From NCBI RefSeq assembly GCF_016097555.1, contig NW_024532765.1, positions 1 through 64,000 of the forward strand: a stretch of DNA of 64,000 nt, read 5' to 3'. Position numbers and translations under genes: made by a program. Source of the stretch: Gigantopelta aegis. Lineage: Eukaryota > Mollusca > Gastropoda > Neomphalida > Peltospiridae. Within the stretch, counting starts at the first letter, position 1; every line of letters begins with the position of its first letter. The notes beneath the pieces were generated by a model. The model saw only the letters and a program-made list of their open reading frames with translations, did no database searches and was not told where the DNA came from. Shown here one piece after another: positions 3,601 through 41,660 of the stretch.

Positions 3601-4741
3601 TGGCTGGTGTGCAACTACCTGGTGAAGTTGAACCCCCAGCTAAACAGAATATCCCAGCAGAGGAAAAATGTGAAAAAGAGCAGGAAGTCTTTACAAATGC
3701 CCTTGAACGATTAAATATGTACTGGGATGGGAAAGTTCATGATGGATTCAGGATAACTTCAAAGGCAGCGACACAGTGTAACAAAAATGGGAGCCACATG
3801 TATGAGAAAGTCAAAGAAATGTTGAATTAAAATTTGCGGGCTATTCGGGAAGATCCAACATTGACAGAAATCATTGAAGATTGGAGATACATTTCCAAAC
3901 ACATGGATAGAAGAAGTGGCTTTATATGCTTCCAGAAGGGCAGCTGTGGAGATTCTACATGTGAATGTATGGTCAATGATATCAAGGCTACAAAAGTGTG
4001 GAAATTACCCAATGGTGAAAAATGGCTGTTCCCACCTATAACTCCAGATCCTCACCATCCAGGGCACTATATGACACTGCACCAGCTGGCACAATCCATT
4101 GTCTTCAGCAGCCCTGACCAACACCTGAATATGAAGAACTTCACGGCTAAAAGTTGCACAAAGTGCAGGTATGTCTTGTTTACTATTGGTTATTATTATC
4201 TCGTTCCAGCAAGTGATCCACAACTGATGTAACTACATGTACGGCCATGGTATGTACTATCCTGTCTGTGGGATATATTTTGTACACTTTTACACCTACA
4301 TGTACATGTAGCTGTCTGTCACAACCACAACTTAAGAAGTAACTGGTCAGGTCATGGACGCAGCAGTTATTTATTGAAACATGGGTAACAATGATTTTAA
4401 TTCATCAAACATAAAATAAGAAAATAATAAATAGAAGAATGTCATATATAACTGAAACACTATTCTTCATATGTTCAATAAAATAAATATAATTATGGCA
4501 TTGTACTTTCAGGTATGTTTTTACCAGCAAGGCTGATGAAGATAGACACATCAAAATAATTCATGGCGGAGTTCGGGCATTGAACATGATAGACAGGACA
4601 GATAAGGCAACCGAAGCTCATGAAAAGATCCACAAGTGCCCGATTTGTAATGAGAAGTATCCCAGAAGATACCAGCTCCTAAAACATCAAAACCAGGACA
4701 ATCACAAGCAAAAGAAAGGAAGACCCAAGAAAATCACTTGA
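608..4741 (+). pseudogene. Degraded Zator/ISAzo13-like transposase with two C2H2 fingers
   Basis: Three exons can be read: 608-913 (102 codons from MADNVYDR, donor AAG|GTAAAT), 1656-4168 (acceptor TTTATAG, donor CAG|GTATGT) and 4513-4741 (acceptor TTTCAG, stop TGA). Together they would code for about 1,000 residues. The catalytic core is in exon 2: FSCDSKAKIHIG near 3080 (first Asp), GVSDRWW near 3425 (second Asp) and RFNPIEHLW near 3560 (Glu), followed by SPLSKFLAG. This order and wording match ISAzo13-type DDE transposases. The C-terminus has two C2H2 zinc fingers, the first split by the last intron, then a basic KKGRPKK AT-hook-like end. Reading frame changes occur in exon 2 near 1900-2040 and 3150-3270, and an in-frame TAA lies at 3828, so the copy is inactive as a gene. 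Confidence 0.72.
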
Positions 4742-4885
4742 ACGTGGCTTCTAGATTATGATAGGACCACTCCAGTGGCTAGTGACATTCTAATATAACT
4801 GCCAATAAAAGATGGACAAAAAAAAATCAACATTTTATTTTGTACACTTATGGGGGGAGGGGGGGGGTCATGAAAAAGTGTACTC

Positions 4886-4926
4886 TTTGTACACTTATGA
4901 TAATGTTGATAATTGTGAATGGCCCC
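4886..4926 (-). repeat. Right terminal inverted repeat of the Zator-like element
   Basis: Reverse complement begins GGGGCCATTC and pairs with 340-380. It is followed by the TTA target copy at 4927-4929. A second, internal stretch of the motif CATAAGTGTACAAA lies just inside this end, which may be a transposase-binding repeat. Confidence 0.85.
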
Positions 4927-5800
4927 TTATCAGAACATTATTTCAGTGTATCACATCAATAGTATCAATATTACATATAGCCAATCACCATCAAGTTACA
5001 GTGAATCACATCAATAGTATCAATATTATATACAGCAGACCACCATAAAGTCATCAGTGAATCACATCAATAGTATCAATATTACATATAGTCAACCACC
5101 ATCAAGTCATCAGTGAATCACATCAATAGTATCAATATTACATATAGCCAACCATCATCAAGTCATCAGTGAATCACATCAATAGTATCAATATTACATA
5201 TAGCCAACCATCATCAAGTCATCAGTGAATCATATCAATATTATATTTAGCAGACCATCATCATGTTATCAGAACACTAGTTCAGTGTATCATATCAATA
5301 TTATATACAGCAGACCATCATCATGTTATCAGAACATTATTTCAGTGTATCACATCAACAGTATCATTATTACATATAGCCAACCATCATCAAGTTATCA
5401 GTGAATCACATCAATAATATCAATATTACGTATAGCCAACCATCATCAAGTCATCAGTGAATCACATCAATAGTATCAATATTACATATAGCCAACAATC
5501 ATCAAGTCATCAGTGAATCACATCAATAGTATCAATATTATATACAACAGCTACACCATCAACATGTTATCAGAACATTATTTCAGTGTATCATATCAAT
5601 ATTATATACAACAGACCATCAACATGCTTTCAGAACACTATTTTTCAGTGTATCATATCAATATTATATACAACAGACCATCACTTAGCCAACCACCATC
5701 AAGTTATCAGTGAATCACATCGATAGTATCAATATTATATACAAGAGGTCATCAACATGTTATCACATTCTGTCCTAGTAGCAATATACAGAAGTCCATG
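4927..5800. repeat. Minisatellite, right block
   Basis: Continuation of the 50-60 bp tandem array seen at 70-339. Units alternate between a CATATAGCCAACCATCATCAAG form and a TATACAGCAGACCATCAT form, each with ATCAGTGAATCACATC. Copies diverge by a few bases, and no spacers of constant length are present. Confidence 0.75.
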
Positions 5801-7327: not shown

Positions 7328-7900
7328 TATCAACATTTAGCAGCAACAGCTACATGTAGGTTATTATTCATAAACTTCAACTAATGGTTTTAATGGTCAG
7401 CTGGCCATAAGTAACTGTACATTATCAACATTTAGCAGCAACAGCTACATGTAGGTTATTATTCATAAACTTCAACTAACGGTTTTAAAGGTCAGCTGGC
7501 CATAAGTAACTGTATATTATCAACATTTAGCAGCAACAGCTACATGTAGGTTATTATTCATAAACTTCAACTAACGGTTTTAATGGTCAGCTGGCCATAA
7601 GTAACTGTACACTATCAACATTTAGCAGCAACAGCTACATGTAGGTTATTATTCATAAACTTCAACTAACGGTTTTAATGGTCAGCTGGCCATAAGTAAC
7701 TACACTATCAACATTTAGCAGCAACAGCTACATGTAGGTTATTATTCATAAACTTCAACTAATGGTTTTAATGGTCAGCTGGCCATAAGTAACTGTACAC
7801 TATCAACATTTAGCAGCAACAGCTACATGTAGGTTATTATTCATAAACTTCAACTAACGGTTTTAATGGTCAGCTGGCCATAAATAACTGTATACTATCA
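7328..7900. repeat. 95-bp tandem satellite, six copies
   Basis: Six head-to-tail copies of a 95-bp unit, one of them about 2 bp shorter, start at 7328, 7423, 7518, 7613 and onward. Each contains TTAGCAGCAACAGCTACATG, then CTTCAACTAA and GGTCAGCTGGCCATAA. The copies are nearly identical, which implies recent expansion or conversion. No spacers are present, so this is not a CRISPR array. Confidence 0.92.
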
Positions 7901-7927
7901 ACAGTTTTTTTTTTGGTAGTTTTAAAA

Positions 7928-15853: not shown

Positions 15854-18158
15854 GGGCAATTCCACGAGTCAAGGGACATGAGAGGAAAAATTAAATTTCA
15901 TTATTTCATTATACAAAGGGTCAAAATTAATTCACAAGATGCCCAATTTGCAGAAAAACTAAAAATTCTTGTTCACACACACGTCTTTCCTAACGCTTCT
16001 GACATCAACACATATTACATAATTTCAAACAGGAACATATTAAGCCAATCAAATCCCTTCCATCAAACTGGCTTCTATACTTTGTGTTACTCAATTTATA
16101 ATGTCAGTAGCATCACTTTAAAGAATACAGGCATTTAAAATATTTTATGAAAACAGGTTGCCCAAAATTATGATTTGAAACAATCTGCAACGTCTGTCAC
16201 ACAAAAAAAAAAATGGTTTATGTGAGAATAAAAATCTGAAGGTGTATAATCATGTCCTTTGTAATTCTCTTAGCATTAGTCAAGGTAAAGATAATAAATA
16301 TGTCAATCAGTCCTGAATTTATGTGATTTAAATTTGAGAGAAGAATGGAAACTGTATCATCCGTCACATGTAACGTCTGTCACATTCTGATAAGTCGGGG
16401 GAAAAAATCTTCATTTAGCATCTTTACAACAAAAGGTGGTTTCACTGTTTTACCCACAATTATTTAGTACTATAAGGGACTATCCTGAGGTTTCTTCCCT
16501 AGAAAGACTTTTGTTTGTTCCCCCAGTAAAATAAACATATATCCTGCTTCTTCTGGGTTTTTAAAAAACTTTATCTTACTGTATCATGTTTTGCTTTTAA
16601 AGCTTTACATGGATAAATACATTTGGTATGACCTTTTGCTGAAATATTTCATATCTCGTAGGGTCTTTGCCAAAAATAACAAATCTGTATGTACCGTACT
16701 AAATAATTTGAGACAAAATATTATATAGCGATACATGTACTACAAAACATTACAATATCCAGAAATACATTGGTTATAGAGATATTTATATTCTAAGTAA
16801 GAACATGCAAATAAATTGCAATTTTAGTAATGTGAAAATGCCGAACATTTCTTAAAATGGCTACAAGCTGAGGATGGTCCCTAGGTGTCACCCTTGTTCA
16901 TACTCTTTTCTATGATCAAGACAATTCAATTTCAATTTCATCAGCCAACATACTAAAATATAAAGGTATGTACTCAAGAAAAAGGTAGTGCATCTTAAAT
17001 TAACCACAGATATTGTTGTGCCAATCTAAGGTGTGACTGGTGGGTTATTGAGCACGTGTATAAAGATGAACACTTTTCTGATTTAAGATGGAACTCACGA
17101 AGGTAAGTACTATCTGGAACTGGCCATTCAAAGAGGACAAACTTGTCTATGTTAGAGAGAAGATGATGAGAAAGCTTCCACCACCCATCATGATGAACAA
17201 CATGGATGACTGTGGTGGGTTGTGGGGAGTTGCTGGGAGGGGGGTGTTGGCAGGCGAGATCCTCCAATTTTTATTAACCAGTTTTTAATACACCTATTAA
17301 TTTTTAATTAATCCATATGGTATGACACCAGCAACTACTGCAAGATGATGAATGAAATATTTTCATACAATGGTAATCTAAAAATACATCCGGATATGAC
17401 ATTGGTAGTCTTGTAACTTATCATTATCGACATAGGTTCTTTTTTTATCTGCAGACCTTTCAAAACCATTTTAGGGGATAGTGTTTGTCTTTAACATGAC
17501 AGTGTTTTCATGAGCTTTACATTTAAAATAAATGAAGGCTGTTGCATCACAGAAATATTTAAGAGACTGGATATACTGATAAATCCTCAGTGGCTTTGTA
17601 TTAAATTGAAAGTCTGTAATAGTTTAATTAAAATTAATCAAAATCCACATCATGATATTCACAATGCATTAAAATGCTTTTACAATCACAACAGTGGACA
17701 ATGTACTGCTTTTTATAGACTTATAAACTTCATGTTATGTCAGTGGACAAAATGTAACACCCATCACGTAATGTCCATCACACACATTTATGTTATAACT
17801 TTCTTTACACTTTTAGTTTAGAGCCGAGTTCTAATTGGTAGTCATCTATAGCCATGTTTCCTTTACTTCAATGGCAATCACTGATTTGTACAATTTAAGG
17901 GTTTCACACAATTTGAAAATGAAGTTAGTTGCTTTTTACCCATGTCATTTTGAAGTAACATCTGTCACGCAAATATTTCTGATTACCCACCAAGCCATAA
18001 ATATTTCTAAGTACTTTTCTCTGTGACACCAAATAGGTATGAACATTGGTAAGTATCATACACACGATTCATTTACTTGGGGTACCAGTGTAACAATCAG
18101 GTCAGTTGAAATGACCTCCAACCTCTCTGAATGCAACGTCGGTCACGTGGAATTGCCC
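15854..18158. mobile_element. Unclassified DNA transposon with GGGCAATTCCACG ends
   Basis: A 2,305-bp element has 13-bp perfect inverted ends (GGGCAATTCCACG at 15854 and its reverse complement ending at 18158), flanked by ATAA on both sides (15850-15853 and 18159-18162). At least six same-orientation copies of an (A)ACGTCNGTCAC-like motif occur: near 16187, 16358, 16372, 17766, 17955 and 18133. Clustered short repeats of this kind often serve as transposase-binding sites. No transposase domain was recognised in the short open frames, so it is probably non-autonomous. It lies just downstream (3' side) of the RNF213-like exon, most likely in the last intron or 3' flank. Confidence 0.68.
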
Positions 18159-18251
18159 ATAAGATGTATTCATATATATACGTTTAGACTTTATTACATT
18201 ATAACTAACAATACCTCCTGATCCAGACCCACGTAACAAATAATTTAACAT

Positions 18252-18263
18252 ACTAACCTCCAG
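18252..18263 (-). other. Likely splice donor of the giant exon
   Basis: The minus strand reads CTGGAG|GTTAGT. Beyond it the frame runs into sequence made from the transposon end at 18158, which argues that the exon stops here. A second possible donor, GGAG|GTATTG, lies near 18217. A possible last exon with acceptor TATATTTTAG near 16960 was seen, but its frame depends on which donor is used. Confidence 0.55.
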
Positions 18264-21200
18264 TGCAATCACAAAGAATTTGATGGTATGCATGGTATGC
18301 TCTATAGCAAGTAGTGGAGTCAGTAGTCCAGAGTCTGTTACTGTTGTGTCGGTACCATCAGAAACCTTTTGCACAATACCTGTTGGCCATAGGGTTGCAT
18401 CCATAAGGCATGGTGAGAGACTTTCATTGGCATCTAAGCTAGAAGTGGATAAATATCTGAAAGAAAATCTTTTCAGAGCACAAATAAATGTCTCCAGGAG
18501 TGTGATGGATGCATTATTTACTACAGCTTTGAGGTTCTCAATACAGTCTTCTGGAATTGGTTTGTTATATTTCTCCTCGAGTGATTCAATAACAATGTCT
18601 GCCATCAAAATTTCAACAAATTCATAAAGTGCAATAACATGACAGAGATGCACTTTGGAACAGAAATTAGTTACAGCTGGAATCTGAACTGCAATCATAG
18701 ACTGCCACTGCTGAAGTAGGTCTGTCAAGTTCTGTTCAACATCCTGCCTTGACAATGGATTTCTTGTCAATAAACTGAATGCCATTTCCAAATAATTCAA
18801 AAGCCCCTGTAAATTACCTGGATCTTTTCTCTTCAGTTCCATTACAGAGTTTTCTAACTCTTTGTCAAGTGGTTTCTGTTCAACAATGTTGCGTATTTCA
18901 TCAAATAAAGTGTTTGACATCCGAAGCATTTCTCCTGAAAAAATTATTCTTGGAAAATTTGACCCAATTTTTAAGTATGACTTATTTATCAAGCATGTGT
19001 GTGCAACTTGCATCTCAATTTGATAGAAATCATAATCTCTCTGAAGACCACAACCAGGGTTTGTGTTGCACTGAGAAAACTTTAACAAATTTTCATCAAG
19101 AGAATTAGAGATAATTTCTCTTTCCGTTACATCTTCAAGATTCATGCTTGGCACAACTACAGTGCCAAGGCTTTTCTTCAGAAAACTTGTAGAATGGCAG
19201 TTCATATACAAGCTGATTATGACTGCATCATCAAGGAACTCATTGTGCATGTTCTGCAGAGCTGTCAAGACCTGGAACAGTGGTGACGTATCATCCATCA
19301 CAAGTGATTCAGATAAATTGCTTTGTTTGTTTATTCCTTCCATTTTGACAATGTTAGAATTGTACCTTTGTAGAACTGAAAGATGAGTCTTCAAACTATT
19401 CCAAGACTTTATGAAGGCATCATATGCCTTTTCCAATGCCTTTTTAGAATCTTCATCATCATTTACCTCTGATTTACAAATAAAAGCTTGCAAGGTCTTT
19501 TCACGACTTTTATTCCTTTTTATGCCGTGGCTCATGTACCGCACTGTGCAAAGGTGCCATTGAACAAGTGGAAGTAACTCCAACAACATTTGAAGTTGTT
19601 GTGACTTTTCAAAGACTAATCCAAGAAATGGAAATGATGACTTAATTGTGCTATTTAGAAATTCGATTTGCATGTTGTCAATGCTAGGTGTGTTGGTAAT
19701 TCTAAACAGCTTTGCAAGACTTTTGGACATTTCACCATCAACACAAATGTCCTCCAATGTTTTCTCAAATTTTATAGCAGAATTGTCACCGACATCCTCA
19801 GAACGGGCAATCAATACTTGTTGGATCACTGTAAACCTGTTTTTGACCAGCTGACTGATATTCTGATCAAACTTATTTTCAAATTCTTCTCGTTCTTTTT
19901 CAGTAAGAAACTTTGATGTGTTTTCCAAGAGTAAATCTTGCTGATCATCAACGACAATGTGTAAGAACTTGCTCAGCTGTGCATCACCAAAGAGAGTCAA
20001 TCTTTTTAGAGCTTTCCAGTGCAATTTTAAATGTTCACAAAGATAACTGACCACATCAGCATCATCAGGTAATTTTAGCAATTTAGTCAAGTCAGCTGTA
20101 GTAGTATTGTTCAATGCAAGTGACCCAGCAAAGCATCCATGAAGCACAAAATTCAAAATTCGAAAAGCAATTGGTGAAAGACTTCTAACAGAAATCAAAT
20201 GATTCTTTGACAAGTCATGCTGAAAACAGGAATAGCCCTGGGTTCCTTGAAAGGTATTTTGGATACTTATAGATTTGGACTGCCTATGTCCATCTGAAAA
20301 CATATTCTTGCACACTGAACAAGTGTTGTCCATTTCATCACTGACATATGTTGCAGTTACAAATGTGCAGGAGCAGTCAAAAAATGTAGCCACATGGTGT
20401 TTATCTGAGACAAATGCAGCTAATGTTTCTACATCAATTTGATCTGGACATGGACATAAATACATTGAATTTAATTCAACTGGTTTCTGAAGACATTTGC
20501 TGAATACTGAACCTGTCTTTTGATCTGGATCATGTGCAGTAATGACACTGAACAGATGAACCAAGACTGACACCATGTTGAAAGTCTGACTGTCTGTTGT
20601 TGAGCTAATTTGTAAAAGTGGAAATGCAAAATCCTTTCTGACAACCAAACATTCCAGAAGACCAAGTTGATTTGGTGCAACAGAACTATTTTTACAACAG
20701 TTTACAAATGACTGCGAGAGGGTTCTTTCTGTGTCTGTAAGAGGTCGGACAGCTTGCACAAGATACAGCTGCTGAATTGCAAATGAATATATTCTCATCA
20801 TGACCTGAGGGCTCTCATTGGCACTTTTCAATATGGAGTCCATCATTTCCGTATTACTTTTAAGAGAGTCAAATGCTGCCTTCTCTTTTTCATCATGTTT
20901 CCAACATGGATTGTGTTCAAAAAGCTGCATTCTCTCCTCTAAATCAATTTCTTTTTCATAAATAACTTCTACCTTTTGGTTTACCGTTTGTTTAACTGCA
21001 TCAAATCCTTTCAGCCCATCTCCTTTCACAAGAGCTCTCAAGAGCATCCTCTGCATAGCTTCGACTTTTTCATTTCTGTCACAATATATATCATCATTTT
21101 CACAGGATCGAAATATACTGATGATTTGCTGCAACTCATAAGGGTAATGATCTAAATTTATATGTTTGCTTGTCAGAACACTTGAAAAACTTGTGATGAC

Positions 21201-24200
21201 AGACTTTAGGAAAGCAATAGCAACAAGTCTTTTAAAATTCAGTTTTTCTTCATTTAAGAAAGTATTTTGACATCTCAGCATTTCTTTAATGATAGCATTG
21301 TTACTTGCCTCATCTCCCTGAAAGAGGCCTGCTGGTTTGATGAAATAATGGAACAAAATATCCATGACAAGCGTTGCCAAATTTGAAGCTCCATCATGGG
21401 TATCACCAAGTTCCATTAAATAACTGTCCAGAATTTTGACAAACTCATTGTCATCAATGTGGTCATCATTCAAAATATCTAATCCATTGCTAATTTCCAT
21501 GAAGAGAGCTTGATGTAAAGTCGGACCAAAAAAACTAAATGTTTCATCAATCATGTTCTTCTTCAACTGTTCAAATGTCCAAATTAAAATCTGCGAGTCA
21601 GGATCAGCTGAAAGGCAAGAGCTCAGGTAGCATGTCAGAAAATGTTGAAGAACTTTCTCTGAATTCGCATATTTTTCTCTCAGACCATTGAGCACAGAAA
21701 AAAGGTAACACAGAAAGTCATCCGACTCCAGTCCGTTGAACAAGATATTTTCACCAAGTTCCAACAGAAAGTCATTTGGCAAACCATAAGGAATAACAAT
21801 CAAGGCAGCAAAGTCACTACAAACTCTGAGATATTGAAGGATTTCTGGCTCCAAAGACACTTCACTTGAAAGAGATAAAACCAAGCTGACACCCTGCTGC
21901 CATTCCTCAACACAGAAAGTGGGAGCCATATTTTTTGATGGTATCAACAGTTTACAACAGTAAGTCACCAATATATCCTTAGATGTTTTTTCTTTGTTAG
22001 CAGAATCTTCCACATCAGCGTTATTTTCAGCAGAATGAAAATTATCACCTAAATATTCTGCATTCATTTCAGTAGAATCAGAATTATGTAGATCTGTGTT
22101 CTTTACCAATGAATCACAACCGTCACTTTTCACAGCGGGATCAAAACCATGATCATTGGTGTCCTTCACAGCAGAATCATCATTACCTACAACAGCATTC
22201 TCCACATCCAGGTCCTTCACAGCAGCATCAGATTTATCATCTACATCAGTATTTTTCACAGCAGAAACGGATTCATTTACACTGGTGTCATTCAAAGCAG
22301 AATCATCATCTACATTTAATTTAGTGCTTTTCACAGCAGAATCAGAATCATCTACCTCCAATTCCACTGCAGCAGAATTAGAATCATCTACAGTTGATAC
22401 CTTTGTAGCAGAATCAGAATGATCTACACTGGTGTTCTTCAAAGCAGATTCAAAGTTATCTGCATAACTGTTTTTCACAACACAATCAGAGTAATCCTTA
22501 GATTTTTCAACACAATTCTGAGAGGCATCTGAAAAACAGGCTTCCATGATAGTTTGAAAGGAAATGTCTGTGACTCGAAGGCAGGCATCCACCAAATCCA
22601 CTGAAGACATAATGTACGACTCATGCAGCCAATACATTACATGCATTTCTGTAACTGCTTCAAGAAATGAAATATTCTCAAAGGATAGTAATGGTTTCAT
22701 TGTCATCGTAATCATTTTGTGTTTGTGCTCCTCAGACATGTGTGTTTTTCGCAAAGCACTGATGTAGCTGCAAAACGCTGTGAAGTAATCTGCTTGTGAA
22801 CCTTCATACTCATGCAGAAAAAGTTCTGCAGCAGTTACTTGGATGATTCCTGTGAATCGTCTGCACAATTCAATTTTAACTTTTTCATTCAGGTTATCAC
22901 CATTGCTATCATCAAAATCGTCATCATCTACTTCAATTTCCACTTTGTAACACCTTAATTTCTCCATGAACAAATTTCTCAGATTTATAATCTTCTCCAA
23001 AAAGTGATAAACAAAGGGATACTGAAAAGACGTTACCAATGAAGGACAAGCATAGCACTGAGGTCCAACAGGAACTGGAATATCAACTATGTTGATGATA
23101 TTTCTGTCAAATGCAAACTCTTTCCATACACTGAGAACTGTCTTGTTATTATCTGCAAAGAGTAGCACATCCCATGCATTCTTTAGCTCAATCTGGTAAA
23201 CAAGAGCTGCTAGTGAGGGTTTTATGCATTGGTCAATTTCTTGTTCTAGGGCACCATGGAGAGTTGAGGCACTGAAAAGTTTCAAAGTAGTACATGCAAC
23301 ATCCAACTGCCAATTCAGTCTAACCAAAGCCACTTGTTGTCTTTCGTAGACAAACTTCACCAGTAATTCTTCAAAAAGATACACTATTTCTTCATTTGAT
23401 GATATTCCACTAATGATATCCTTCAAACTTGCCATTGTGCGATGGCCCTTTGAATATCCAATGCAAGTGAATGCCCAAAAGAGATTTTGAGATATAAATG
23501 ATGTTAGTGGCCTCTGTCCTTCAATGAGAACTTGCATTGTTTTGTCTAGCAGATCATTTAGTGGTCTTGTGGAATACTCCATCTTGTCAATAAAAGAAAG
23601 AGTCCAACCACTTAGGAAATTGATACAACCTAAACCGACATCTTCATGTTCTCTTTCCAGATGTATGATAATGATGACATTTTTCATGCACTGTGGCTTT
23701 GAGTTCAATAATTCAGATCTGTGTTTCTCAACAGTGGATTTCATAAGTAGAAAATTCATCATGTCCATATGTGGGGAACACTGAATAATTAACCACTCAT
23801 CATCAGTATCCAACCAAAAATGACCAATTCTGCTTGAAAGCTGTTTTTCCGATTTAAATGCACTAAGTTTTTCAACCTGATACTGAGATGAAACCGATTT
23901 TATACAATTCCCTATGTCAGTGTGAATATTACTGTGGGTAAAAACAATCAATTTATGCCTTTCATCTGGCTGTTGCTGAAGTAAGTTATGCACAAAACAG
24001 CTAATACCACCATGTATAGGTAATTGAAAATAATGTTCCTTTAGTTCATCACAGGCAAAATCGTCTTCTTTTGATAAAACTGATTTTTCCAATCTAATTA
24101 TGCCTTCAGGTGAACATACTTGCAACATGGTTCCCTTACATTTAGTCAGTGCATTAGAATGAAACATCTGATCATGTTCAACTGACAAATCATCATGACC

Positions 24201-27200
24201 AACTGCCATACTATCAAGTTTATATGTCACATTGTCATGCTCAATTGTCACAATATGATGCACCAAACTAGACAACATGTCTGGAGTAAAAATTGGAATG
24301 AAGTCTTGTTCAGTGAAAGAAAAACCTTCTACTAATGTGGCTTTTTCTAACCATATTTTCATTTCCTTAACTAATTTTGTTTCTCTATCTGACAATATGT
24401 TAGCTAGTCGAACATTTTGCTTTTCAAATCTATTCAGGAATGGTGGATCTGACATGTCAAGTTCACTCTCATCAACAAGAACAATGCATCTAAACTTATC
24501 ATGAACATGGCATAATGGGTTACTGTAAGCACCATGAGCTATTCTGCAGTTCTTTTTATTTCCAACAATTGTATAGTTCTGATTAAGCATATCATACAAA
24601 CTACCATAGATGCTGTCAAGATCCTTCAAAATGAGAACAATGCCTTGTTCCATACAGAGGATTATTCTACTAAGAATTCTGTAGTTGTACTCATCTGTCA
24701 AATCTTCCTCAAACTGGCTGCCCATGATCAATTCATACTCTCTGTTCATATCACGGAGCATTGTTTCAATTATGCTTAGTGCTGAATCACCACAAGTAGT
24801 AAGCAAGAGATGTCTGGCACCTGGATCACAAATATTTTCCTTGATTAGTGAAATAACACTGACATCCTTATCTCCTAGGAAATATTGTTCACTGTGTAAG
24901 TTTGCATTTGCCAAATGATCTTTATAAATCTCTACAACTGAGCTCAATTCTGAAGGAAGTCCTCCAAAATTGCGTAACAGTCCTCTCAACATGATGTTAC
25001 CTTTCAACACAGAATCATGTCTCTGTTTTTTTGATAGTTTGCTGAATTCTTTGGAAACATACTTAACCAATGAGTAATAATCACGCAGTCCATGAAAGTG
25101 TGTAAACCTTTGTTTGTCTATGTAAGCTATGTATGCTTTGGCAATGGCTAATAGTAATTCATGATCTATGTTTTGGGAACCAGCAGTGTGTGGAGTTTTT
25201 TCAATAGAAAGTAAAGAGCTGGAGAGGTGGTCGTCCTTCACAGATGCTTCACTGATAGAAACTCCAGTCATGTAGAGCTCTTCTACATCCATGTCTGGTC
25301 TAGAAAGATGAATGGCTCGGTTCATTTTGGCTGCATCGAGGGCCCAGTTAGAAATACCTACTACAGCGACATCAGGCACTTCACTGTCACCAGGCTCAAG
25401 CAAACTGTGCAGAACTTTGAGTGGGTTAAATCTTGAAACCTCTGCAAGACCTATTTCATCAAGAATGACCACTGGAAGAACATCATCTTCTTTGTTATGC
25501 TTTCTATACTGCTTTGCTTTATCAAAGACCTTAATAATGCCATCAGATGTTGAAGACTCTGATCCTTGATATGAAACACAATACAGCTGTGGCAATGTTT
25601 TGAAATAGTCATCTTCCGAGTCCTTGCCTCTAAGGTTGCTCTTAATCAACTGCAGTGACAATGATTTGCTGCAGCCAGGCTTGCCAACAACAAATACTGG
25701 AATGCGGTTCAGAATACATACCATGATGACAAAAACATTCTCTTGTAAAGCTGTGTTGCTTGCTGTTCCTTCTGGAAGATCCATTCTATTTAAAATATCC
25801 TTCTGCTCAGAAACAATGATATTAAGAATATCATTTTCTGAAGACAATTTAGTATTTTTGTGCCCATGGAATAATGTGTAAATTTGTTCCCTGTACTGAC
25901 GTCTTTCAACAGTTGTAGCCAAACGAGAGTGGTATGAGTGAGCCAGAGCTAAAATTATGGATTTTATTTCACACTGTTCACCATTAAGGTGTTGATCTTT
26001 TGACTTCAGTGTATTTTTGAACCAACCAATCAGTCTTTTACATCGACTGACATCACGAAGACTGACACAGGATTCATTCTGAAGTGTCTTTTTAATGAAT
26101 TTCTGTGACATGACAAGCAGCTGCACCAACAGTGTAGTGAACTGATCTGAAACAATTCTACCAATCATTCTTTCGATGTATGCCTTTTCATCTTCCTCAG
26201 CTAAGGTCCCATAGTCCCAAACATAATCAACCATTGTTTCAGGAAGTGGATTAACTCTGTAAACAAGCTTTGACTGTTCATCAGTTTTAACTTTCATTGT
26301 TAAACCAGCTGTGAAAATGGACCCTTCATTTCTCAACCTGTATGGATTGCAGGCAGCAATAAGAACAAGATTTGGTGCTAGGATTATATCCTGACATCTG
26401 TGATGGCAGATTATGTTATTAACCAATCCGAGATGATTGCACGTGTTAATCTCATCAAGAAACATCCACAATGGCTCATCTAGATTTGATCTAGCTTTTG
26501 CATTGGTATCCATAACACTTTTGATGATGGTGGACTCATTAGTACCTGCATGAATATTCTGTATATGAAGCTTAACATCACACACTGTGGCAAGATAGCG
26601 GATTAAGCTAGTTTTACCACAACCAGTTTCACCCATTATAATTATGGGGACATGTGCCTCAATTCTAAGTACAATGAGAATCATTTTCAGAAGGTTGTCA
26701 GGTGTCAGGGCGTAATCATGTCCAAGGTTCTTGAGGGTTTCTTGGGGCAGTTCTCCTGGTCTAGATCGAGCAATCCTTTGGAGAATTTCTTGTAGCTGTT
26801 TCTGATTAAGACGGGAAAAATCAGGAAGTGGCTTCCTCACTTGCATCTCAAACAGATCTTTTATGTGCTTAGGCACTAGACGTTTGTCTCTGTAAAGAGC
26901 AGACAATGTCTGGATGTCTGAATTATGAAAAGTAACAATGAGATGATTACTTTCTGCCCACTGAATCATATTTTCAACTCTTTTTGTCATAGAGGTTGCA
27001 GATGCACAAGTGAAAAATGATGATTCGCTGGACACATTTACATCTTTTGTTTGTGAGACATTCGCAAGTTGCTCCGATCTACAAGCCTGAACTGATCGTG
27101 TAGAAAACTCGATTGAGAATTCAAGTAAGGCACGCATCAAACTTGATTTCACGTTGCTTGTATCTTTTTTACCAAGCATAGCTAGAAGATTTGATGATCG

Positions 27201-30200
27201 GAAAAATAAACTGCAGGATAATTTCTTCAACTGATCAGCTAGAACACGGAGAAAAATATTCACCATCGAGAATGATAAATCACTGCTTGAAGAGAAATGT
27301 TTGCGTAGTAAAGCCTGACATTCCTGAGTTGACAAACATGTTGTACAATTTGTGCCACTAAAGTACTGATCTTGTGTGTCCAATGTTCCATGTTCCTTGG
27401 AATTTAAATAACAACACACAACCTGAACTGAGCTGCAGATTTCTTGATCAACCTTAAAGTTTGTGAAATTTTCCCACTTCAGATTTTTTCGATTGAAGGA
27501 CATTACTGTTTGCAATGAATTTCGAAGGACATTGTTAATTGAATTGGCTATTTCAATGCTGATGTGCTGTGTTGGTAACTTATAGAGTGAAGATCCATCA
27601 ACAAGAAATCCTAGAACGATCAACTGAAACAGAAGAAGATCCAAATCATTGGGTTTTGAAACTACCCCAATATCAATATGCAGAACATGATGTGGTAACA
27701 GATTCAGCTCTGACATTTCTGCAATTAGCTCTTTAATACTTATGTCTCCACTGATGTGAACTGTGCATACTCCGAAGTCTTTGTTATCTGCCATATCATA
27801 AATAAGTTCAGTTTTACCCTGACCTGCAACATCAGAAGTAACCGTTACTACATCAGACCACAGATTTCTGATACATGATTCAATGGCATTTTGCGTCATT
27901 GGTTGTACATGGTGAACATAGTTATCAAAGTGGTCCAAAAATGGGTGATGTGACCCACCCTGGCATATTACTGCCAGATAAGGAATGTCTTTTTTCAACA
28001 GCTTCAACTCATCAACAAGTTTAAACTGTTCTTCATTTGTTAGTTTTTCAACTCCAACGATACAATACAGTTGTTTTCCAAAACTGGGCTTTTCAGACCG
28101 AATACATCTTTGCAACAGAAGGTAGATATAGTCCCATTTTGTTTCAGCACTACAAAACAAAATCTGGTGAGGCATGGGAAGAAATCCAGTTGTGTTTTTG
28201 TAAATTGACAGAATAGTTGAGATAACCTGCTTGCTGTTTTCTTCCAAGGCAGCAACAAAGAGCTCTCTTTCTTGTACAACATCTGTAATTTTAACTTGAC
28301 TCTCACTTGTTTTCCCTTTGTCTGCTGGAAAATGTTTTGGTTCAAACTGGATATTCTTTAAAGCCTCTGCAAGTGTTTGTCCAACCAAATGTAATGAGTA
28401 AGAATGAGTTGATTCATCCTTAGTCATGTTACAAAAAATACTCCTGGCTTTATCCAGGAATCCCTCTCCACAGCCTGCATATTCAAACAGTGCAGTAACT
28501 TCCTCATAAGAAGATCCATCCATCAAGAAGTCTTTGATTTTGAAAAGTTGTTGAGGAAAAAACCAATTCAGCCAGAAATATTGGGTACGATTTTCATCCA
28601 GGAGCTTCATCCAGTTTTTAAAAATCAGTTCAACGCTGTTTATTTTGTCTTTCAAATCACAAATAAAAACAGATGTATTTACTTTTCTAGAAACATAATC
28701 AGGATGACCACACTGGGCAAGTTTTTCAAAACAACCAGCAATACTCATGATGCTGTCCAAGCAGTCAACAAACAGTTTCAAATCTTTCTGCTGCTTTGGT
28801 TTATGCTTACCTGTTTGGTTTCGTTTAGTTTCTGTGTTCACAAGCAGCAGTGCACGACTTCGAAGGTCATCAAGGTCAGATTGAGACTGAAACTCTTTCA
28901 ATCCTTGAGTCTTGTATTGTAGAAGCAACTCACAAGTGCCATTTTCTTTCAGCTGGATAATAAATCTTGTTCCCTTTTGACTGACTGCTTTGTTAATAAT
29001 ATCTTTCGTCAGTTCACCTCTATTGGAGACATGTTTGTAAAGTGATTTCAGACCATGAATGTTTGTACAGCAATCTTTTATTTTACCTGCTAAATTAGTC
29101 TTGTTATTTGTAGATGCGGCCTTTTCCAATGTCTTAAAGACAAATTCTATTTTGTCAAATTTGACTGTTGTTTTCAAAATAGAATTTAAGAATCTTCGGA
29201 CATCAATGAGGGCAGAAATGGTAGATTCTTGTATGAATTGTTCTGAATGCTCTTCCACTGAATCAATAAGCTGGCGTAAGTCCTCTTCAACAGTTTCACG
29301 AAGAAACTCGACCAAAGATGATGCTTTACCTAGTTCTTTTAAAACATCAAAAAGGTCATCATCAATAATCTCATCAATAAGAGAAAGTTGTCTTTTGGTT
29401 GCCAAAAGTTGCTTCAATGTTATTCCTTGTGGTGTCCTATTCCTCAGGGCACAAAATGACTCTATTGTCTGATGAAAGTTTTTATCTAGCTTTTCATCAA
29501 TATGAAATACATTCAAAACAAGTTTAACAATCTGAAACTTTTTTTCAGATTTACGGTACTCCCGAAACATTTGCAGTGAGTCCATTATCCATTTTGGAAA
29601 GGTTTTGTTCAAAACTCTTTCTGCGCACTTAACTTCAGCTTCTAGATTGGATGTTCCAATTATGTCTTTTATTTCTGAAATATCTTTGACTTCTTCCATG
29701 AAAAGTGGCTTCCATGCAACTTTATATTTATCTATGGCTTGATTACTGAACATTTTCAGGACAGATAAAATTACTGCAGGTAACTGAACAATTTCAGGAT
29801 CCTCTTCACCGAACAGTTTAGAAATGGATTCCTCAGGGGATCTTGGTTCTAAGTCCTCTATAGGATTTTTCAATATTTCATACACAAGGTTCACAGAGAG
29901 TGTTAAGAATACTTCAGATTCTAACATCTCAGTAATTTGCTGGTTGAAAAGGGAAATGGTCAAAGGAGAAATAAAGGAACCATCTTCAAGTTCATACAGG
30001 TACACACATCTCCGAGAAAAACTTTCTTTTTTCTTCTCAAAATACACCTTTACTTCTTGTATTTCTGGAATGTCTGGTAAAATACACTGATCAAAACTTC
30101 TTTTGAGCTGTGACACAATGTTGGAAGAAATGGCAAGACTTTCTTCAGTTTTAGATACCATTTCTTTTGATGTAAGCCAAGATTTCTTAAGATCTTCACT

Positions 30201-30516
30201 TTGGTTTATAGCAGCTAAACTCAGCAAGTCAACAATACATTCATTTGCTTCTTTCTCATATATCTGCAGTTTCATCACATCATTACATTTCAACCTTTTG
30301 GAAAGAAGCTTCTTTGAGATAGAATCAAGGAGCTTATTTGCCTTTACAAAAACCTTGTGTTTCCTCACTTTGTTAAAACAAAAACTACCAGGCACATTCA
30401 TCAATTTTACCCAGAAGTGCTTGTTTTTCAACATAATCTTCAATCCATCCAGTTCTGACTTTGTACCAGACAATTCAGAAACGTCCATGCCTATCATCAG
30501 CAAGTTTGCAAAGGAC
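18258..30516 (-). CDS. RNF213-like: RNF213/mysterin-like giant AAA+ E3 ubiquitin ligase, large internal-to-C-terminal exon
   Basis: One uninterrupted exon of about 4,086 codons; the open frame itself runs 30638-18102. RNF213 is a cytosolic dynein-like AAA+ motor fused to an E3 ligase, linked in vertebrates to lipid droplets and to ubiquitin coating of intracellular bacteria. Visible in order, with residues counted in this exon: a helical N-arm; a P-loop AGQGKT (K about 901, the ATP-holding AAA2 position); an active AAA unit with GETGCGKTS (K about 1301) and LDEIN (about 1354); a second with GKPGCSKS (K about 1617) and VILDEIG (about 1686); the family signature PPFLNRFEK near 24430; a Cys-rich RZ-like cluster (about 3381-3402); and a C-terminal shell. 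No C3HC4 RING is visible; an Asp/Ser repeat (about 2672-2845) sits where it is expected. Human RNF213 has 5,207 residues, so N-terminal exons and probably a short last exon are missing. Family assignment is firm; orthology versus paralogy is open. Confidence 0.93.
20300..20380 (-). other. RZ-finger-like zinc cluster in RNF213-like protein
   Basis: Encodes FDCSC, then 15 residues, then CSVC and after seven residues a His (CKNMFSDGH). The Cys-x-Cys and Cys-x2-Cys spacing falls where the RZ finger of RNF213 sits, roughly 1,770 residues after the second active Walker A. In vertebrate RNF213 the RZ finger, not the RING, is needed for lipopolysaccharide ubiquitylation. Here the first pair is Cys-x-Cys instead of the usual Cys/His arrangement. 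Confidence 0.6.
21980..22500 (-). repeat. In-frame coding minisatellite (Asp/Ser/Ala/Lys repeat) in RNF213-like exon
   Basis: About 13-14 degenerate units of 11-14 residues follow a consensus close to DDSDSAVKNTDV. The plus-strand DNA shows recurrent CAGCAGAATCAGAATCATCT. The tract is acidic, has no hydrophobic core and is probably disordered. It keeps frame throughout. It lies between the AAA motor/linker and the RZ-side E3 module. Confidence 0.88.
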
Positions 30517-30530
30517 CTGAAACAGAAAGC
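30517..30530 (-). other. Splice acceptor of the giant exon
   Basis: On the minus strand GCTTTCTGTTTCAG precedes GTCCTTTGCAAAC. The upstream part of the open frame translates to hydrophobic residues produced by the pyrimidine tract, so it is intron. The exon enters at the third base of a codon. A 32-bp stretch at 30587-30618, between a possible acceptor CCTTTAG and a donor GTAGGT, could be a tiny preceding exon in the right phase, but this is weak. Confidence 0.75.
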
Positions 30531-30639
30531 AGGCAAAATAACAACAAAAAGCAAGAATTCCATGGAATTAAATGTCTCACCTACCATAAACATTTCATAT
30601 GCATTGTGATGAACATCTAAAGGAACAACTAAAAACAAG

Positions 30640-31429
30640 TTTCATCAATATAGTTTATGAGAAGAAATGAAGCTGAATGCAAAACTTTAAAATTTAGCAA
30701 AAGGCAGAAGTATTTAAATTATAAATGTTTAATTACTTATTTTTTTTTTGAAAGTCTTTTTATAGATGCAATGATTAAACTGTTTCATTGATCTAGGGCT
30801 CATATAGTTTGTGTTAAACGGATCTAAATGCGAAACAAAAGAGCAGAAGTAGAAGCCGGCTATGCTGTTGGAAAAGTAATACCTATATTTTGACTTTTTA
30901 CTTTGCAAAGATGAGACAAAAACATACAACAAATAAACAAAAAACCCTTAACACCTCACAAACAACCAAGATACTATTAGTTACATGTTTAAAAAAAAAA
31001 AAAAGCGTCACAAATTTATTACCTTTTAGATCTTTGTTTTATAATTAAACTAAAATTACACTAACAGTCAAACTTTTAAATAAAGTACACACACATTTTG
31101 AGTTTCAGTTTAGTAACATAACATAATGTAACATGTCATCAAATTCCTCAAAATGTAATGAATTTTTTAACTTAATATGCAAGATATTCACAGCTTTTTT
31201 TTGTTATCAGTTTGGGTATTAAGAGTATCAACAAGGATTGTAGTGTTGTACTAACTTGTAGAACCTGTCAAAAGCATGTGAAGTTACTACTTAAAATATT
31301 TTTATGGTAAAGTAATTTTTCATAGCTAACTACTGTTTATTTGAGTATTTTTATTTTTAAATATATCAAATAATATTAATAATAAGTTTATTAAAATATA
31401 TAATTCACTACATATGAATATCTACTAAA
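30640..31429. other. Gene-free stretch upstream of the giant exon
   Basis: AT-rich and probably intron or 5' flank of the RNF213-like gene. No confident upstream coding exon was found. Confidence 0.5.
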
Positions 31430-35847: not shown

Positions 35848-38800
35848 GGAGAAAAAACGAGGTGTTTTCTCTTTTATAGATACATCACCTGTCCTCATAA
35901 CTAGTACATATTCCCTATGATTAGTAAACTGGTCCAAACATCCCAACAGCCAATGGGATGGCTTAGATTCTTCCACTGTATACCCCTTCCTGTTCTGGTC
36001 ACATGACTAACTTCCTTCTTTTCCCTGAACGAATCGCACGGAGAACTAGAAGTGGGGAGGAAGGGTGGGAATCATCCCATGAGGACAGGTGATGTACCTA
36101 TAAAAGAGAAAACACCTCAAGTTTTCTCCATTTCTTTTCAACATCACCTGTCCTCATAACTAGTGCAGCATTCGACAGATGGTGGCGGGTTACGTACTCC
36201 GAAGATGCACAAGTCTTCTCCCCATGGACCGGTAGGAAAACTGACAGTGGAAAGAAAGCCAACCGAGGTTAGCCCATCCTCCAAGAGATGCATAAACAAC
36301 CAATACCCATGCTGTTAGTATTGACAGTGGCATCCGTCAGTGGTGTGGATGAACGAAGTCGTGAATTACGAAAAGGGTCACAATTCGTTCTCCAACAATT
36401 GGGTTCTGAATGGTGGGTAAGCGTCGCCACCGCGGATGCAGGTGTTAGGTAACCATCCAACCGATAATTGTATACTAAATGCAAACAAATATGGTATAAG
36501 TATCCGTCAGAACATTAAACCAACAAAACCCCGATTGTTTCTTACTAGTAAAATGGTGGAGAAGTTAGTTCAATTAATAGGAGAACAGGTCGTTAGTGTG
36601 CAGTGCATTGACTAACTAGTGTTATCTAGACAAAAAGTCATGTCATCAACCAGTGCGAAACTTCGGAAAGGTGTCCAAAAACAATTTGTCAAAGTCAAGT
36701 CCTCATCTGGACATAGGACATCATGGAGTGCAGGCCGGAATTCAACAGACATCAGTGGCGATGAGGACGACCAGTATTGACCAGAGCTTGAGCTGCGACC
36801 ACAGGATCTAGATGGTGGAATCCCTCGACATCTTCAGGACACACATCCCTCAGGTAGTAGTTTGCGAAGATGGAGTCAGTGGCCCAATAACACCCTGTTA
36901 AAATGCTGGTAATAGGTGTATTGCAGTGCAGCGACATGGTGGCGGCAAAGGCACGAAGCTCATGTGGATGCGACGCCGATGGTGGAGGTAAACCCTCTGC
37001 CTGGTAAGCACACAGAATCGTGGATCTGATCCAAGTAGACACTGTTCTTAGTAATGTCATTCAAGTGGCTCTGGTTGCATGAGAGGAACAGACGCTTTCG
37101 ATGTTCACGAAAAGACGTAGTTCTCTCGATGTAATGCTGAAAGGCTCGACCAGGACATAATGATAAGTCCTCAACATCGTGGGAACCCACAATGGAAGAG
37201 TGCTTGGACAGCGTAGGTGCGAAGCACTTGATCAAGCAGGGGAAGTGTTGTCTTGAGGAAACGGTACCATGTCCACTTCCAGAGCATGGTACTCTGACAC
37301 TCTTGCCGCCATAGCGAACCCCAGCAAAACCTCTAAAGATGCCTCAGTAATGGGCTCGTAAGGGGCTTTGGACAAGGATCTCAGAATCAGGTTCAAGTCT
37401 CATGTCGGTGGCTGAAATGTTGGACCTGATCATCGTGTTTGAAACTCTTGATCATGGAGTGGATCTCAGGAACAACAGCCAGTCCTGAACGGTTGCGATG
37501 ACCAAACATAACCAACAATAGTAGAGCCTTTGAGTTTCAATGTGGACCGGAGATACAGCTGAAATTCTGCCAAGTTCTCGACACGAATAGTCTGCGATTT
37601 CAGTTTCTGACTGATGCACCATTGATGAAAACATAACCACCAGACATTGTATGCAGCGTACAGCCCGATGAGTTTTCAAAATCGCCGATGTGGTCAGAGA
37701 AGAAAACCCCTTCTTCCTTAAACCGTCGGAGATAATGTCCACGCATGTAGTTGGTACAAGCTTGGATTTGGATGGTGCTGTCTCCACGTGGGATGAAGCA
37801 AGAGGCAATCCCAATCTGGTAGCGGTAGAGGATCTGGTGCCACAAGACATAAAAGGTCTCGATACCAGATTCCGCTTGGCCATTTTGGAGCGATGAGAAG
37901 TATCTGACAATGGAACTCCTGAAAGTGCTGGAGGACTCTTGGTAGCAACACTGGTGGCGGGAATGCATACGCATCCAGATTGTCCCAGCTGATGGCCAAG
38001 GCGTCGAGATCCAATGCGTCTGAATCCAAAACCGGGGACACATACGATCTTAGTTGACGAATGAAGCACGTTGCAAAAAGATCGACAGTCGGTGTCCACA
38101 GCCTGTGACACACCCACCGGAACACTTCTGGGTTGGCCATCCACATCGGTGCTTTGCAGAGTGGACAGTCTTGACAATGTGTCTGCCAAAACATTCGACA
38201 CCCCTGGTATGTGAAATGCTCTGAGTTACAGCGGGATTGCATCTGTCAGCTCAAACAGATGATAGATGAGATCAAGCAGGCTGCTGGAATGAGTTCCGCC
38301 CTGACGATTGATGTAGACCGCCGCTGTCACGTTGTTGGTCGCTACCATGAGAGTTGCATGGATAAAGTGCTGATGCCAATGACGTATCGCATTGAACACT
38401 GCCAGAAGCTCCAACACGTTGATGTGGAAACTGGCTTCGACGGCAGACCACAGCCCCGATGTCCGACTGTTGAGATGTGCTTCCCAACCTTCTCGTGAGG
38501 CGTCCACAAACTTGGAATGGCCTCAAAGAGACTCAGCCTAAGACGTTTGACAGAATCAACCACTATTGCAGACAGGGTCGAAGGTTGTCAGGTGTTGTTC
38601 AACGTGATGTACGGATTCAGGAAGACTTGTAAACGCCATAACTGCAGGCGACCCCATAGAATTAAGTCTTGGGCTGAGGTCAAAAGACCCAGTAGGCTCT
38701 GAAACACATGGAAAGTCACAGGTTTAGCCAGAACTTTGGATACAGCAGATTGAATCTTGGTCCATCGGTCTGCAGGAACCTGAATGAGTACCAGATTGGT

Positions 38801-41660
38801 ACGCAGCTGAATCCCAATAACTGGAGATTCTGTGTTGGTAACAGTAGAGACTTTTCCTGGTTGACAATCCATCCGAGATGGTGCAAGAACTGAAGTACGT
38901 AGCTGACTTGGCCCACTAACTTCGTCTTGCTCTGGCACTTCAAAAGACAGTCGTCTAGGCATGGGTAAAATGATATACCCTGCTGATGGAAAACCTGCGC
39001 TATCGGAGCTATTATTCTTGTGAACAGCCAAGGAGCTACCGAAATGCCAAACGGCAGAACCATCCACTCGTAGTGCACTCCCTGTAGTACGAATCTGAGA
39101 TACAACTCTGGCGAAACAAACAGTGAACGCAGTGAAGGGATAAACCGCACTGGACCACAGTCACGGTGAAAAAAACCAAACCGCGTGATGGCAACTGGAT
39201 AACTTCCGGAGCCAGCGGAAATAGCGACTGACTGGCAACACCACCAGATGTAGCGATCGACCTGCCGAATATCTCAGTAAAATTATCGAGCAACAACCGG
39301 ACCGACGCATTCTGTCGTCAACACCAACCCGGTATGCATGTAACGTCGAATTGATGCCATAGCACAATTGACTGTGTAGCCCAACAGCAACAGCGGCAAA
39401 CTGACAATCGACAGGAAACTGGAAACAGTTTGTCATCAGGCGGAATGTCTGTAGCAACCTCGGAGCGAGACATATCATCGAAGGTTCCTTGCGACTGTAA
39501 TAACAGCAACAAGGCAAACATGCATAGTCATATGAACTGCGAACACCGTATCGTCAACCACAGATGAGACTGGATCATCATGTGGAAATTCGTCATAAGG
39601 CGCGCATAAGCAGACCCAACGGACGGAATGGCAGGCGCTGGAGACTGAGACCATAAAAAGTCGCGCCGGAATTCCCCAGAAACCTGAAAGCTAACATCAG
39701 ACGAAGATCGGTGATGACGGTCCGTGAGACCCGTGATAGGCCATAAGACCGACTGCGTGCACAGCTCCGGTGAGACTCGGACGACTCAGACTGATCACGA
39801 GAAGAGTATGAAGAACGCTAACCCGGTAAACCACTGAAGTCCCTTCCACAGTAGCCGCAGACGACGTAAACAGCAAAGTAAAGCCGCAGGATGGACCGCA
39901 TCCGGAAACATCAAGACAGGTGAAGTCTAGATAGGGCCGGTAACAGGTGTCGCTGAAACCGTCACTAGACCCGCCATAAAATCGCAGGAACCATGGCAGC
40001 CATGGAAGCAGACGTCTTCTGCAACATCGTTGATAGCACCGACCTGCAAAGTACCGGCCGTCAATGAACATCCGAAGCAATCTTCTGTGTCAGGTCCATC
40101 TTGGAATGCGTTGGCGGAGGTAGATGTGATGGAGCATGTCGTAAACCACAGCCAGACAACCCCTCATCGTCATGTAGTCTGCAAATCCTTATCTATAACG
40201 GAAACAGTTATCTATAACGGAAACTCATCTGCTCTCATAATTTGCGCACCGGCAAGGTGATCGTCAATAGTGGAAACCACAGCTGAACCGAACCGTAAAC
40301 GGTCCCGTCTGGAACCCTCAGAAACTCTGGAAGCCGCTTCAGCCAAAAATTGGTGTCGATAATCCATGGAGCTCGTGGGAGGCTGTGAAGATCGGTTATG
40401 GTCACAGCTTTGAAGGCGCCGACGCATCGTCTGAAAAGACATATGGGAAGTCCTTCATGCCCCTAGTACAAGCAAGACGGTCTGAAGTGCTGGCTGCTAC
40501 CAGAACACAGACTGTGGACGGTCCCGTCGAATACTGATGGAAGCCTTGGAAGCCGTATCAACCGATGATCGGTGTGGATGAACCACTGGACCCATGGAAT
40601 GACTGCGGCTACGGTGCGACCCAGAATCTTCCGATCGATCATGGAAGGAACAGTAAGAACAGTTTTCTCTGTCCGCTTAGACGATTCAGTCCAACTGGAA
40701 AACTCGGTCCGTTCGTAACGCTTCTTACTGGAAACAGTCTTCAAAGGCCGATCACTGAAACCCGTAACGGATGACAGCCGCTTAGAGGAAGATGCTGAAC
40801 ATTCCATCGGTACCGCAGAAGCAGATAGAACCGAACCGGAAACCGCTGACACTGGAACCGCCCCTGAACACATCTCATCGCTGTCTGGCATGGAACACGA
40901 CATCTAGGACAGATGTCATAGGGTGGTCAGACGACATAACTTCGTGCAGCGAAAGCAGACTTGAACAACACGAGATACTCTAACATCAGACATAATAGTA
41001 GCTTTTCAATCTGTGAATAGAAAGAAAAAACAACCATGACTTGCAACAAGCCGGTAAACACAAGACGCCATTTTGCAAATGGCAACCATGCAAAGTAACC
41101 CGGCGAAATACAACAAAATGTGGAAAAATAACACTTAAAACAAGCGTTAAAAGCCAAACAAAGATAGCGACAAAAACTTCCTGCATTTAGTACAGGAACG
41201 CACAACTCTAGAAGAGCTAGTATCCGACATTCTCAACAATCTGTAATGAGAAAGCAAACACATAAAAATGCACAAATCTGGTAAACAAGAAGACGCCATT
41301 TTAAAATGGCGACTGACAAGCTAAACTGGCACACATGACAAAAAGATAAGTTGTATATAACACTTAAAATAAAGTGATTACAACCAAAATAATGGTATAA
41401 TAGCAAAGTAACAACATTAAAGAATGTGTCACCACAATAATTTGAAACATAAACCATAGTAATAAAACAGAAAATAAAGAACGTCCGAACCATAGAAGCA
41501 AAGGAAAAAGAAGGAAGTTACAGTCATGTGACCGGAACAGGAAGGGGTACACAGTGGAAGAATCTAAGCAATCCCATTGGCTGTTGGGATGTTCGGATCA
41601 GTCTACTAACCATAGGGAATATGCACTAGTTATGAGGACAGGTGATGTTGAAAAGAAATT
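35848..41660 (-). mobile_element. Decayed DIRS-type tyrosine-recombinase retroelement
   Basis: A fossil element of about 5.8 kb coded on the minus strand. Inverted terminal repeats of about 125 bp (about 35887-36013 and 41522-41648) agree at roughly 93%. Near the 3' end a second inverted pair (35848-35898 and 36079-36129) and a further copy of the end sequence (about 36127-36165) resemble the internal complementary region used by DIRS elements. In minus-strand order there is a low-complexity gag-like region (about 41.0-39.2 kb), reverse transcriptase (about 39.15-38.6 kb), RNase H (about 38.5-38.2 kb) and tyrosine recombinase (about 37.2-36.75 kb). This order and the inverted ends identify DIRS. 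It is broken in several places, and repeat divergence suggests it is not recent. It is GC-richer than its surroundings. Confidence 0.85.

Follow-up and report, generated by a model that had tools for sequence, protein, structure and literature searches.

Results

A giant-exon RNF213-like gene and its family

The window analysed here, 64,000 nucleotides of the Gigantopelta aegis genome (contig NW_024532765.1, positions 1 to 64,000), holds on its minus strand a giant exon of an RNF213-like gene that forms a single open frame of 4179 codons (18102-30641). Homology of this exon to a paralogue at 19.99 Mb of contig C8 spans ~30563 to ~18246 by tblastn, and the frame past that point, down to 18102, is probably intron. 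Human residues ~313-684, which carry CBM20, gave no tblastn match in the window at E<=1; the corresponding exons may be too diverged or lie outside it. Elsewhere in the window, a 355-codon open frame with DDE_3 and Tc3-type helix-turn-helix domains (56978-58045, plus strand) encodes a Tc1/mariner-like transposase. By eye, we take minus-strand frames at ~37452-39273 to resemble a DIRS-type reverse transcriptase; Pfam reported nothing for a 257-codon piece of them. Two adjacent plus-strand open frames (1971-3158 and 3219-3830; 395 and 203 codons) had no Pfam match at E<=10, and tandem repeat arrays with units of ~56-62 and 95 bp occupy 4943-5729 and 7328-7903, respectively.

In this 1.15-Gb animal genome, the gene is a member of a small RNF213-like family built on giant exons. 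A search of the genome (1.149 Gb in 5216 contigs) matched the second half of the exon to at least four other loci, each of them on contig C8, at 19.88 Mb (62-64% identity), 19.99 Mb (59-60%), 19.25 Mb (54-55%) and 65.56 Mb (29-36%); no relatives were found among the viral and prokaryote contigs searched. The 19.99-Mb paralogue lies in two frames (C8:20003299-20005032, 578 codons, and C8:19993166-20003362, 3399 codons) with a 64-base overlap; jointly they match nearly the full length of the window exon, the split being a frameshift in the gene or in the assembly. At 19.88 Mb, a 32-residue piece at 72% identity contains a stop codon, and the 19.25-Mb copy is broken by a run of N; neither of these two places was matched when the AAA part served as query. 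A partial copy at C3069:13075-14025 (plus strand), within a 1609-codon frame, is 72% identical to the AAA part of the window over 318 residues. Short AAA-like matches at 31-44% identity occur on C4 near 10.75, 11.39, 11.77-11.80 and 12.43 Mb and also on C1630 and C1039; spread as in several exons, they are probably more RNF213-like genes of ordinary exon structure.

The ATPase motifs of the AAA motor are intact

Pfam reported AAA domains on the whole exon protein (E<=1), and phmmer matched exon residues 1298-2232 (23946-26750, minus strand) to human RNF213 2383-3315 over 935 residues with E ~3e-110, a match that supports an RNF213-like assignment of the predicted protein. The original prediction, an RNF213-like exon with an AAA motor, was right in this respect. 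Motifs of AAA3 and AAA4 were compared in the window and two other copies, i.e. three of the five, and all three share the same residues: in AAA3, the Walker A motif GETGCGKT (residues 1337-1344, 26610-26633, minus strand) and the Walker B motif FLDE (within 26442-26465, minus strand); in AAA4, the Walker A motif GKPGCSKS (residues 1653-1660, 25662-25685, minus strand) and the Walker B motif ILDE (within 25449-25472, minus strand). The RNF213-type catalytic motifs of both AAA3 and AAA4 are thus present and intact in 3/3 copies compared.

The family lacks a RING and one copy has an expanded acidic loop

That the exon has no C3HC4 RING had been noticed beforehand and held up: Pfam reported no RING in the exon protein at E<=1, and a deliberately loose RING pattern, which would miss a RING interrupted by an intron, was found neither in the exon nor in any of the six frames across the 64,000 bases. 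The C3HC4 pattern was likewise absent from 5/5 copies and from 38 loci read, like the window, in six frames.

The feature proposed to sit in the place of the RING is an acidic Asp/Ser loop at exon residues 2705-2890 (21972-22529, minus strand), with a period of 12 residues (36 bp), 45 acidic and 16 basic residues among its 186, and 17% Asp and 14% Ser across residues 2706-2895. Self-similarity of its DNA peaks at a lag of 36 bp, a value reached by 0/2000 codon shuffles; at the protein level the lag-12 signal is weaker (reached by 10/1000 shuffles). The acidic tandem repeat is therefore real, while the predicted count of about 13 units was generous: the repeat is degenerate, with 2.6 copies detected by Tandem Repeats Finder (22334-22428), and the extra piece relative to the nearest full-length paralogue, that at 19.99 Mb, amounts to ~136 codons, or 11 units of 12 (~22,080-22,487, the sole gap when the 19.99-Mb copy is aligned to the window by tblastn). 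The counterpart loops of the four paralogues measure 36, 44, 45 and 45 residues, as against 186 in the window, all of the short loops are net-acidic, and both repeat flanks align across them. A linker able to change length had been anticipated, and these lengths agree with it. Since the four paralogues have the short loop and no RING, the repeat is, as the sequences indicate, a window-specific expansion, among the five copies compared, of a short loop in an already RING-less family, and the absence of the RING is independent of the repeat.

The placement of the repeat relative to the human RING was addressed with the human RNF213 chain 3245-5207 from the PDB, the numbering of which was verified on the zinc and catalytic residues. 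Ahead of the repeat the alignment is steady, exon residue 2450 pairing with human 3609 and residue 2705 with human 3849 (posterior 0.77-0.90 over nine settings), and for this reason the repeat can be said to begin near human 3855, ~140 residues before RING Cys3997. When the repeat is masked, human 3880-3997 falls on it in a pair-HMM (posterior 0.64-0.90 across nine settings); when it is removed, exon 2705 pairs with human 3849 and exon 2890 with human 3860, the alignment crossing the cut with a gap of at most one residue (posterior 0.72-0.86 over six settings), which argues that the masked placement reflects gap costs. Because the outcome flips between masking and cutting, pairwise alignment to the human protein cannot decide where the RING would lie and was given up for this purpose. 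A global affine alignment that had put the repeat on human 3857-4010 was set aside, and a match of the segment after the repeat to human 3860-3935, made by eye, was dropped, its scores not exceeding those of shuffles. Against human RNF213 this segment scored no better than shuffles or other windows, profiles of the five copies were of no help, and single-sequence hhalign returned nothing; exon 3066-3114 has a weak, non-significant profile match to human 4148-4196. The claim that the repeat occupies the RING position is thus not confirmed: its left edge falls short of the human RING, and sequence does not place its right edge on the human protein. Were the loop purely an insertion, lengths would suggest that ~110 residues, including the RING, are missing relative to human RNF213 somewhere within post-loop residues 2891-3066 (21444-21971, minus strand).

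The RZ finger is reduced to a putative remnant

The spacing by which the RING had been predicted some 450 residues before the RZ finger presumes such a finger, and none was reported by Pfam for the whole protein at E<=1. Two exon fragments searched at E<=10 also lacked RING and RZ matches, the sole report being a sub-threshold zf-Di19 in the RZ zone (E 0.087). A strict RZ pattern was found neither in the exon nor in the six frames of the window, where an intron-split motif would escape it, and the RZ stretch alone aligned to human RNF213 no better than chance; CxxC occurs three times in the 4179 exon residues. By contrast, a five-copy profile aligned with human RNF213 4424-5127 (E 5e-6, probability 86%), crossing the RZ, and points to a remnant at residues 3420-3455 (20277-20384, minus strand), the putative RZ identity of which rests on this flanking profile alignment, on spacing and on the cysteines. 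C3423, C3425, C3441 and C3444 are invariant in 5/5 copies, and the arrangement C-x-C-x15-16-C-x2-C near this place arose in 1/20,000 shuffles of the E3 half, the pattern having been picked after it was seen. An AlphaFold model of the remnant alone (3385-3475) had a pLDDT of 35 and was not used.

In the profile alignment, the human zinc ligands C4525 and C4528 are matched by C3441 and C3444, the general base H4537 by H3452, and the nucleophile Cys4516 by Tyr3432. The C-x2-C is kept, whereas the human CPNGH (CPxGH) is replaced by C-x-C in 5/5 copies, and the RNF213-type RZ zinc site C-x3-H...C-x2-C is absent. The nucleophile column reads Tyr in the window, Lys at 19.99 Mb (where a one-residue insertion nearby means that the residue could also read Asp), Tyr at 19.88 Mb, Cys at 19.25 Mb and Leu at 65.56 Mb. 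The general-base His is present in 2/5 copies, neither of which has the nucleophile Cys, and the full Cys/His pair occurs in 0/5. The clade is not uniform: of the five copies, only that at 19.25 Mb still has a Cys in this column, where, as in human, the next residue is Gly and the Cys stands 9 residues ahead of the CxxC; this copy lacks the general-base His.

These residues matter for function in the vertebrate enzyme. As reported, an E2-ubiquitin probe crosslinks to mouse Cys4462 (human Cys4516), and activity is abolished when this residue or the RZ zinc ligands are mutated (PMC12075652); the RING is dispensable for RNF213 ligase activity (PMC12075652, PMC11549300); the premise that the ligase is independent of its RING and dependent on the RZ agrees with what these two papers report. 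Caution is needed before any substitution is called dead, because mouse Cys4462-to-Ser retained autoubiquitination in vitro (PMC12075652), although C4516S failed on pathogens in cells (PMC11549300). The further proposal that this lineage kept RING-independent chemistry is nevertheless contradicted by the sequence, with Tyr3432 at the nucleophile position and no CPxGH.

The C-terminal shell is retained and the exon is under constraint

Downstream of the remnant, residues 3486-4053 (18483-20186, minus strand) match human 4572-5121 and comprise the rest of the E3 shell and the C-terminal region, with a local score 9 SD above 100 shuffles; by BLAST, the C-terminal half matches human RNF213 with an E-value of 2e-8 unadjusted, just 0.15 when composition-adjusted. 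Homology is colinear as far as human 5127 and stops short of the Trp that is key to E2 docking (position 5097 in mouse and, going by the difference in length, 5156 in human). Trp 4085 of the window, present in 5/5 copies, is near this docking Trp yet not aligned to it. The comparison shows that all five copies keep a predicted C-terminal E3-like scaffold.

The exon frame is under constraint. By the Nei-Gojobori method, applied by segment, dN/dS between the window and the 19.99-, 19.88- and 19.25-Mb copies was 0.22-0.39 in 14/14 segment comparisons. For the RZ stretch it was 0.25-0.33 between the window and these three close copies, 0.48 between the 19.99- and 19.25-Mb copies, and 0.73-0.81 against the 65.56-Mb copy, for which synonymous sites are saturated or nearly so.

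Discussion

Both ubiquitin-ligase centres of this RNF213-like protein appear to have been lost while the ATP-driven motor was kept. The gene probably encodes a selected RNF213-like pseudo-ligase with intact ATPase motifs, in which the repeat is an expanded loop and RZ transthiolation does not take place. What had been observed at the locus beforehand was largely, though not wholly, borne out; the interpretation placed on it is supported in part and for the most part fails.

The original prediction, in which the repeat took the place of the RING and the ligase still works by RZ-type chemistry, draws on the spacing that sets the RING-equivalent beside the repeat, on the masked pair-HMM placement and on the ability of RNF213 to act as a ligase without its RING. 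We regard it as very unlikely: the alignment is continuous once the repeat is cut out, four paralogues without a RING have no repeat at all, so that replacement of the one by the other is not supported, and the RZ nucleophile and CPxGH are absent, which already contradicts the RZ part of this model. The invariant cysteines could instead mark a remodelled, active RZ, in which the C-x-C / C-x2-C knuckle supplies its own nucleophile to an E3 with altered geometry, and the low dN/dS between the window and its three close paralogues in the RZ stretch, together with the Cys-Gly of the 19.25-Mb copy, would fit such an enzyme. We consider this unlikely, as the four cysteines resemble a single zinc site, which leaves no spare Cys in window residues 3420-3455, and as the general-base His and the nucleophile Cys do not occur in the same copy.

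Decay is the least credible of the explanations, and we give it next to no weight. The genes would then be decaying copies and both losses would be products of decay, as the two-frame split at 19.99 Mb, the stop codon in the match at 19.88 Mb, the missing AAA matches at 19.88 and 19.25 Mb and the run of N in the latter might suggest; against this, the window frame is open over all of its codons and dN/dS is low throughout the close comparisons.

A selected pseudo-ligase, our preferred reading, would be an ATP-driven RNF213-like scaffold incapable of RZ transthiolation, in which the RZ remnant may persist as a structural zinc knuckle and the loop may act as a flexible tether, its length being tolerated. 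Such a protein could plausibly form coats on intracellular targets or modulate canonical RNF213, a role offered here as a hypothesis only. A motor-only relative could still form coats, because RZ-dead RNF213 alleles are reported to coat Toxoplasma vacuoles in mouse fibroblasts, while ATPase mutants do not (PMC11549300). Taken further, an RNF213 lineage may have discarded both ligase centres with its motor under selection, turning the RZ into a structural knuckle and the protein into a ubiquitin-free, ATP-driven coat or scaffold; for this fuller scenario we see the chances as evenly balanced.

In RNF213 an ATPase motor is joined to a ubiquitin ligase, and how the immune work is divided between the two is an open question. 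A selected natural relative with the motor and without either ligase centre would, if the reading is true, offer a clean test of the motor alone, and the family, whose five copies carry four kinds of residue in the nucleophile column, Cys still among them, could also show how a transthiolating centre is lost. Among the literature matches listed, none described a RING-less or RZ-degenerate RNF213 in its title or the start of its abstract, which is not a claim of absence from print.

Several known systems bear a likeness to this protein. ZNFX1 also fuses an RZ-type finger to an ATPase, in its case an RNA helicase, and the ZNFX1 RZ reportedly keeps the Cys/His pair (PMC12075652). TRIM-family RING pseudo-ligases likewise belong to an E3 family with some members that have no detectable activity; as described, they contain a RING, whereas the present proteins have no RING and have lost the residues of a second, unrelated centre (PMC11992055). 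Compared with vertebrate RNF213 (human and mouse), the window protein differs in having no RING, in an RZ without CPxGH and the nucleophile Cys, and in its long Asp/Ser repeat, placed near human 3855; the acidic stretch that human RNF213 possesses lies elsewhere (~3476-3528). With these same proteins it shares the AAA core with its AAA3 and AAA4 motifs, the order of the shell and the C-terminal region, all colinear where they can be aligned.
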